Assembly (NCBI GenBank): GCA_019044685.2
Contig: JAGTXX020000006.1
Coordinates: 124,001 to 188,000, forward strand
Direction of reading: 5' to 3'
DNA: 64,000 bases
Source of the DNA: Nannochloris sp. 'desiccata'
Taxonomy: Eukaryota > Chlorophyta > Trebouxiophyceae > Chlorellales > Chlorellaceae
Shown: one piece after another, positions 39,783-40,922 of the stretch
How positions within the stretch are numbered: the first letter of the stretch is position 1
Layout: every line of letters begins with the position of its first letter
Position numbers and translations under genes: made by a program
The notes under the pieces: generated by a model
Seen by the model: only the letters and a program-made list of their open reading frames with translations
The model's database searches: none
Told to the model about the DNA's origin: nothing

Positions 39783-39939
39783 TAACATTTTCCTAGGTTT
39801 TATAGTAGTTGGAGGCAATAATTCTTGGAGGCAAGGGGAAAGTTTTGGTCAATTACATGTTTGCAATGGATTGGTGTCGGATCAGTGACCTCTTTACATT
39901 TCTGGATTGCTGACGCCTAGTAGCAAGTAAATGGCAAGC

Positions 39940-39944
39940 AAAAA
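39940..39944 (-). terminator. Pol III terminator after permuted tRNA
   Basis: Five T on the transcribed strand lie 13 nt after the end of the tRNA 5' half, within a short inverted repeat (GCAAAATTTTTGC). This is what a pol III unit needs, and it places the transcript end after the 5' half, as expected for a permuted gene. Confidence 0.7.
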
Positions 39945-39957
39945 TTTTGCTTGTATG

Positions 39958-40048
39958 TATGAAAGCGACGCTCTAACCAGCTGAGCTAATCCGGCGGGCA
40001 ATAGATGCCAGTTGCCGGATACTGGGATCGAACCAGTGGCCTCCGCCT
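39958..40048 (-). tRNA. Circularly permuted tRNA-Met (CAU), elongator type
   Basis: The 3' half (40048-40013) precedes the 5' half (39995-39958) on the minus strand, with a 17-nt intervening sequence (39996-40012). Joined at position 37/38 they form a full cloverleaf. The acceptor stem GCCGGAT/ATCCGGC is 7 perfect pairs with A73, the D stem is GCTC/GAGC with a GG-containing loop, and the anticodon stem is TCGCT/GGCGG (two G-T pairs) with loop TTCATAA. The variable loop is 5 nt and the T stem ACTGG/CCAGT encloses loop TTCGATC. Anticodon CAT and the TTC T-loop indicate elongator Met. The leader GAA before CCA can pair with the loop TTC, as in a bulge-helix-bulge splice site. The order of the internal promoter boxes (B then A) is reversed. 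No 3' half exists downstream of the 5' half. Confidence 0.9.
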
Positions 40049-40922
40049 GGTTCTTTTTCTTTTGTATCTGCCCGCTGCAGTGTTTCGGAATCTACAAATG
40101 TAACACCCCACTGTTTTTTGCTTAAAAAATTTTTTTCTCTCTATTCTCGCATTTCTACAGCCTCTGAGTACTCTTATTATCTTGAAAACCATCTAAGCAA
40201 CAGTATACGTCTCCCTGTCAATCGCGAATCGCCACATGTAGGCACATCTTGCAGAATCAACTCGTCAAATCTTACTAAACCAAGTAGTTATTATACCAAT
40301 AAGCAAGACACTTATCAATTTCATATCCGTTTTGTATCAATACATTATTCTCAACAGAAAACAGACGTGTATTACAAAGACATGATTAACTAAAAAAGTG
40401 GCACCTGCCCGCCAGCCGCTGCGGCAACAAGGTGGGAACGATCGCTGCATCATGCTACATTCAGAAACTAAGAGCCTTCTAATCTTAAATATATCCAAAT
40501 CTACCAGCACCCCCTGCTGCTTCAGAACTTCCAAAACTTGCTCCTTTCAAGGCGGATTTTCTAAAATTGGTATCTAAAAGCTCAATGGGAGAATACCAAG
40601 TTAACTTCTGGCTACGTTGCGCCCTAGACGAGAAAAACAGCGTTACAATGATGTATATATGATAGATTACACTAGCTCAAAACACGGAAATGAACTGAGA
40701 GGGCTGCAGATTAGCAGATGAGAGATATTTTAGCAAACCCTGAAAACGGCGGTAGAGCAGCTCTGTGGCGAAGCTGGATCCACAATCTACCCCTAATGAT
40801 ATTTCGAACGATCTAGAGACAGATTAGACGATAGAGTGTAGAATACTAAAATAGAAATGACTTAGGGTCAACCAGATAAAGTCTTAGTGTCATTCCTTTT
40901 TCCCTTGTCCTTCGCCTCCAAC
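40049..40922. other. Intergenic, tRNA 5' flank and 3' end of CDCA7-like gene
   Basis: About 870 bp without a recognised protein gene. The part next to the tRNA contains the pol III upstream region (A/G-rich GATACAAAAGAAAAAG on the minus strand). The remainder is probably 3' untranslated sequence of the zinc-finger gene. A C-box/D-box-like pair near 40650-40700 is too weak to call a snoRNA. Confidence 0.4.

Follow-up and report, generated by a model that had tools for sequence, protein, structure and literature searches.

A circularly permuted tRNA-Met gene in Nannochloris sp. 'desiccata' and its setting among permuted tRNA genes of the same genome

A tRNA gene whose 3′ half precedes its 5′ half lies on the minus strand of a stretch of 64,000 nucleotides from the green alga Nannochloris sp. 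'desiccata' (contig JAGTXX020000006.1, positions 124,001 to 188,000; the window); with high confidence, it is the nuclear gene, and the sole one found, for the cytosolic elongator tRNA-Met(CAU), permuted at 37/38 and presumably processed via a circle. It does not stand alone: 24 of the 34 distinct tRNA genes found in the genome are permuted, and it is fairly likely, on balance, that permutation is the default for cytosolic tRNA genes in this alga. As it is, for 13 isotypes, the sole form found, every protein would then be made with the help of circular pre-tRNAs, with the A and B boxes reversed though the B-block subunit of TFIIIC is kept.

Structure and identity of the tRNA-Met locus

The permuted gene occupies positions 39958-40048 of the window (coordinates exact; minus strand). 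Its 3′ half (40048-40013, 36 nt, tRNA positions 38-73) comprises A38, GGCGG at 39-43, the variable AGGCC, the T arm, the acceptor 3′ strand ATCCGGC and the discriminator A73, which is followed by ACTGG, CCA not being encoded. A spacer of 17 nt (40012-39996), devoid of TTTT, leads from the discriminator to position 1, where the 5′ half begins (39995-39958, 38 nt, positions 1-37 plus 20a) with the acceptor 5′ strand GCCGGAT, followed by the D arm, the anticodon 5′ strand and TTCATA. A sequence-only reading of this DNA had proposed swapped halves with a 17-nt spacer, leaving the strand unstated; the coordinates bear this out and place the gene on the minus strand. The window also encodes an adenine DNA glycosylase that is 100% identical, over 465 aa, to a protein of Nannochloris sp. 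'desiccata'.

Joined at 37/38, the halves form a 74-nt tRNA with anticodon CAT, and ARAGORN called the joined 74-mer tRNA-Met(cat), in agreement with the anticodon and the junction proposed earlier; longer 3′ halves in the joined molecule gave other, undefined or intron-bearing calls. Watson-Crick pairs make up the acceptor stem (7/7), the D stem (4/4) and the T stem (5/5), so that the perfect acceptor and T stems of the sequence-only reading hold, but its full cloverleaf needs a qualification: the anticodon stem is weaker, with three Watson-Crick and two G-U pairs (27-43 and 31-39). In genomic order, ARAGORN reported no tRNA at the locus and none in the window, and Rfam RF00005 had zero window matches at the gathering score. 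MFE folding of the precursor, the core and the joined unmodified RNA did not yield the cloverleaf.

Evidence that the arrangement is not fortuitous came from a structural scan for a T arm, an acceptor complement and a D arm: the real window gave a single candidate (score 16.0), whereas 40 dinucleotide shuffles (2.56 Mb, both strands) gave none. Furthermore, a covariance model (R2), built from six ordinary tRNAs of the same genome permuted in silico, with the tRNA-Met gene left out, scored the locus at 56.4 bits, the next window matches reaching 11.6 and 9.9 bits; its E-value of 4.4e-17, like all those of R1 and R2, is rough, since isolated halves in ordinary tRNA genes reach about 20 bits with small E-values, and the argument therefore rests on bits. 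Model R1, which includes the tRNA-Met gene, gave it 80.9 bits. The ARAGORN call, the R2 score and the shuffles without candidates thus uphold the original identification of a circularly permuted tRNA-Met gene. Viral contigs, searched for exact matches to this permuted gene, contained none.

Assignment to the elongator class is based on U54U55C56 in the T loop and on the presence of a separate initiator-like gene; the T loop TTCGATC and the G1-C72 pair also fit elongator hallmarks. The second CAT tRNA, locus L004, is in ordinary order and looks initiator-like by its T1-A72 and its GGG/CCC anticodon stem, though its T loop, TTCGAAC, is without A54. DNA searches of the genome (21,550,525 bases, 18 contigs) indicated a single copy of the tRNA-Met gene, the joined tRNA matching only its two halves. 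The sequence-only reading had advised a check for an ordinary elongator tRNA-Met gene elsewhere, and none was found by the DNA and Rfam searches (at least 16 Rfam hits; 63 of 825 candidates scored), a lower-bound search, with 142 of 170 B-box places read, that leaves room for a divergent ordinary gene.

Permuted and ordinary tRNA genes in the genome

The census was based on the surroundings of 142 of 170 B-box places and on 16 Rfam hits. Gapless B-box patterns, which favour neither gene order, were used: GGTTCGAHYCC (50 places, all 50 surroundings read), GGTTCAAHYCC (64 places, all 64 read), GGTTCRAGYCC (27 places, 22 read) and AGTTCGAHYCT (29 places, 6 read). The Rfam tRNA search of the genome (E ≤10, 63 of 825 candidates scored) returned at least 16 hits, 10 above the cut-off and 6 below it; all six of the latter are permuted by model R1, at 41.5-60.2 bits. 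A B-box-like sequence, AGTTCGATCCT, occurs at C10:154932, 158365 and 161092, about 3 kb apart on one strand, which hints at a tandem repeat.

Twenty-four distinct permuted tRNA genes were found versus ten in ordinary order. The permuted genes are spread over 14 contigs, have spacers of 5-73 nt and all share the 37/38 junction, the only one that the census scan detects, with spacers up to 160 nt and introns up to roughly 200 nt. They comprise Met CAT; Tyr GTA; Arg TCG, CCG, TCT, ACG and CCT; Cys GCA; Gly TCC and GCC; Ile AAT and TAT; Lys CTT; Ala TGC and CGC; Phe GAA; Ser GCT and AGA; Leu AAG, CAA and TAA; Glu CTC; Thr TGT; and Trp CCA. The ordinary ones are Val TAC, Gln CTG, the initiator Met, His, Pro TGG, Ser TGA, Ser CGA, Asp, Ser GCT (twice, in a 2.5-kb repeat) and the Pro CGG-like L090. 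Thus, for Ala, Arg, Cys, Glu, Gly, Ile, Leu, Lys, elongator Met, Phe, Thr, Trp and Tyr the permuted form is the only one found. As most tRNA genes found are permuted, many tRNAs of this alga are probably produced by way of circular RNA.

With their halves joined, all 24 permuted genes were recognized by ARAGORN as tRNAs, each with the anticodon assigned to it, and in genomic order none of the 24 was; R2, over the whole gene, scored 23 of them at 27.8-56.4 bits, versus a top score of 23.1 bits (L090) among the nine ordinary-order loci tested. The remaining one, Arg CCG (L054), with a 73-nt spacer, reached 22.8 bits with R2 on part of the gene and 52.6 bits with R1. The D arm of Trp L151 did not satisfy the scan rule, and this gene was included manually. 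For Cys L032 the variable loop was limited to 4-5 nt, giving an anticodon stem of 4/5 pairs; this limit replaced the 12-nt variable loop that had been the script's first choice. Two loci with about 20 bits in R1 were rejected as permuted genes, L050 for the lack of a recognizable 5′ half and L090 for being in ordinary order; L067 (decayed), L152 (a copy of Trp L151) and L153 (a 2-nt insertion) were also excluded from the 24.

Both classes are probably undercounted, since no Asn gene was found in the census (142 B-box places and 16 Rfam hits) and several needed isoacceptors are missing from it, e.g., Val AAC, Thr AGT, Lys TTT, Gln TTG and Ala AGC. Even with a dozen further genes, every one of them in ordinary order, the permuted share would still be about half. 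Among the stretches read, 20 of 261 bases each and 4 of 181 bases each are so short that a distant partner half could escape notice. At C11:1517683 (minus strand), a place outside the surroundings read, an A box follows the B box by about 72 nt, i.e., in permuted order, among 100 of 148 A-box places listed.

Several loci deserve a separate mention. L090 (about 1325-1545; C5 near 482934) is Pro(CGG)-like; besides a canonical intron at 37/38 it has another insertion, at about 31/32, which starts with GTACGT, ends with TTGCAG and in this resembles a spliceosomal intron; by eye, its D loop has no GG. It may be a gene, a pseudogene or a tRNA with an mRNA-type intron, its function being doubtful. 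L020 and L021 (C6:2472079 and C13:296400) are identical Ser(GCT) tRNAs in opposite orientation within the 2.5-kb repeat, the copies of which are 98.6% alike and give the impression of organelle-type or mobile DNA. The permuted Trp(CCA) gene occurs at C8:321685, 551564 and 552570 (L151, L152 and L153), as two alike copies and a third with the 2-nt insertion in the acceptor region, which suggests a recent spread of the permuted gene, and the decayed Leu-like copy at L067 (381-461; C11:1726965) hints that permuted genes are duplicated and later decay. About 40 nt before the permuted Thr gene at L078 (C16:207081), an imperfect second T-arm-like stretch is visible by eye, which could be a relic of tandem duplication. 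A self-comparison of the 24 permuted loci (at least 20 nt, at least 75%, within 600 nt) found six repeats in four loci, and no leftover tRNA halves were recognized among them.

Expression signals, proposed processing and rival explanations

In the tRNA-Met gene a B-box-like GGTTCGATCCC (40024-40034; C6:164024-164034; located by pattern search) precedes, on the minus strand, an A-box-like TAGCTCAGCTGG (39977-39988, tRNA positions 8-19). This is the reverse of the order in an ordinary tRNA gene and matches the inverted internal boxes described in the sequence-only reading. The TTTTT run that this reading had placed after the 5′ half is a putative RNA polymerase III terminator at 39944-39940 (trailer bases 14-18, after 13 nt of trailer). 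By eye, this run overlaps a 9-bp inverted repeat at 39945-39953 / 39935-39943 (CAAGCAAAA / TTTTGCTTG). The signal is general: TTTT occurs within 24 nt after the 5′ half in 23 of the 24 permuted genes, versus 12-14% of window stretches, the exception being Ser AGA, with a 7-T run from trailer base 27; in the spacers it is absent (0 in 534 bases). Base composition of the 40-nt leaders alone revealed no clear upstream TATA-like or common element. The genome encodes a homologue of the TFIIIC B-block subunit, recognized by PF04182 together with the GTF3C1 winged-helix family; PF04182 alone is unspecific and matched in 8 of 14 prokaryote controls.

As described in the relevant parts of PMC10539383 and PMC6614914, introns of eukaryotic pre-tRNAs base-pair with the anticodon loop, beginning at C32; the bulge at the 3′ site has 3 nt, and the 5′ exon runs on for 6 nt counted from position 32. 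If the leader of a permuted gene acts as the 3′ end of an intron, its base -3 is expected opposite position 32. Indeed, 32:-3 is Watson-Crick in 17 of the 24 permuted genes, versus 9.9 expected (p 0.00085, leaders shuffled between genes), and is alone below p 0.1 among 16 position/offset tests; positions 32-35 with -3 to -6 make 63 of 96 pairs, versus 47.7 expected, a count that none of 5000 shuffles reached, and shifted registers (-2, -1, +1, +2 and +3) gave p ≥0.36. These values are to be read knowing that the register was expected from splicing-motif geometry, that the leaders had been viewed by eye before the formal test and that agreement with the cited parts of PMC10539383 and PMC6614914 was established after it. 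Seven genes are without a Watson-Crick 32:-3 pair, one of them having G-U, and position 38 is A in 17 of the 24. At the tRNA-Met gene, the leader end (40049-40054) carries a relaxed BHB-like motif with 3/4 helix pairs: -3 (A), -4 (A) and -5 (G) are paired with T32, T33 and C34, respectively, -6 is unpaired with A35, and -1 and -2 (CC) together with A38 constitute the 3′ bulge.

Sen2-like and Sen34-like splicing endonuclease genes are present in the genome, as are RtcB-like genes, candidates for the ligase. Twenty-four genes of the same build, pairing in the endonuclease register, the T-runs and the Sen2/Sen34/RtcB-like genes together support processing by splicing and ligation. In the pathway that we propose, RNA polymerase III would produce a linear RNA consisting of leader, 3′ half, spacer, 5′ half and trailer, ending at the T-run, in which the acceptor, T and anticodon stems would form across the swapped halves. 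Leader bases -3 to -5, placed on anticodon-loop positions 32-34, would imitate the end of an ordinary tRNA intron; the Sen2/Sen34 endonuclease would then remove leader and trailer at 37/38 and a ligase, possibly RtcB-like, would join the ends into a circle. The 17-nt spacer, predicted to close the acceptor loop in this intermediate, would be cut out by RNase P and tRNase Z, and CCA would be added last. Everything that concerns RNA here, i.e., transcript, circle and mature tRNA, we infer from the DNA.

It could be argued that the locus is a pseudogene, left by a tandem tRNA duplication that lost its outer halves and no longer giving rise to a tRNA. Such a duplication is a published model for the origin of permuted genes (PMC3978253, section 10, part 1), and the genome does contain decayed permuted copies, i.e., L067, with its broken 5′ half, and L153, with its 2-nt insertion. 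However, the acceptor, D and T pairs of the tRNA-Met gene are all intact, DNA and Rfam searches found no second elongator tRNA-Met gene that could replace it, leader pairing and T-runs are common to the 24 genes, and 13 isotypes were found as permuted genes only; a relic is thus very unlikely. That the two halves serve some other use, as tRNA-derived fragments or in trans-splicing with other halves, with no full tRNA coming from the locus, is, in our judgement, highly improbable: their acceptor strands are perfect mutual complements, no T-run interrupts the single unit that contains both of them, and the DNA search found no other source of elongator tRNA-Met. A misassembly that swapped the halves of an ordinary or intron-containing gene is scarcely credible, as an identical swap and junction would have had to arise for each of 24 tRNA genes, spread over 14 contigs, with differing spacers (5-73 nt) and with signals that are sensible in the swapped order alone. 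A functional permuted gene for elongator tRNA-Met is therefore the reading retained.

Comparison with known permuted tRNA genes

Permuted tRNA genes have so far been treated as rare oddities, and here they seem to be the majority in a culturable, sequenced green alga. Such a majority makes several questions testable: how RNA polymerase III and TFIIIC use reversed boxes, whether circles are substrates of RNase P and tRNase Z, and whether it is duplication or the copying of circular RNA that spreads permuted genes; it also bears on the extent to which ordinary tRNA annotation misleads across the whole algal group. A search of titles and abstracts, with subscription papers mostly outside it, found nothing on permuted tRNA genes in Nannochloris. 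For Picochlorum SENEW3, tRNAscan-SE was used in the published study, the main text of which does not contain the word 'permuted'.

The sequence-only reading had limited permuted tRNA genes to a few algal lineages; they are indeed known in algae, but the parts of PMC3978253 cited here also include the archaeon Thermofilum, and the trebouxiophyte Auxenochlorella extends the algal range (PMC12636532). In Thermofilum pendens, as in Nannochloris, a tRNA-Met gene is permuted; however, according to sections 4 and 6 of PMC3978253 it is the initiator, and it differs further in its 59/60 junction, encoded CCA and extra introns. Permuted Ser genes are reported from two chlorarachniophyte nucleomorphs in the relevant part of PMC4494063.

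A close parallel in build is given by the set of 2010 tabulated in section 4 of PMC3978253, which shares the 37/38 junction, the short spacer and the relaxed BHB-like motif. Those genomes have 3-6 permuted genes each (Ser, Leu, Cys, Arg, Asn and initiator Met), elongator Met being unlisted in that tabulation, whereas the single genome of Nannochloris has at least 24, among them elongator Met and five Arg isoacceptors. For Cyanidioschyzon merolae and prasinophytes, PMC3978253 describes, in the part concerned, the mechanism on which our proposed pathway is modelled, with cleavage by splicing endonuclease, ligation to a circle and spacer removal, and the circular intermediate was shown in C. merolae. 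The genes of this alga resemble the Nannochloris tRNA-Met gene in having the 3′ half first, a splicing-type junction, a T-run after the 5′ half and no encoded CCA; they number 11 of 43, however, and have four junction types, whereas 37/38, the sole type that our scan detects, was the only one found in Nannochloris. In addition, the A/B-box subunits of TFIIIC are unidentified in C. merolae according to section 5 of PMC3978253, whereas Nannochloris has a homologue of the B-block subunit.

Auxenochlorella, a trebouxiophyte and hence of the same algal class, also has permuted tRNA genes; its tRNAscan-SE set was incomplete and the permuted genes were found afterwards, as stated in passages of PMC12636532 / PMC12633428. 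Of the 34 permuted genes in the table of PMC3978253 (2014), none is for elongator Met, and no single genome has more than 11 of 43. Permuted tRNA genes themselves are thus already known; a permuted majority in one genome seems to go beyond the published cases found.
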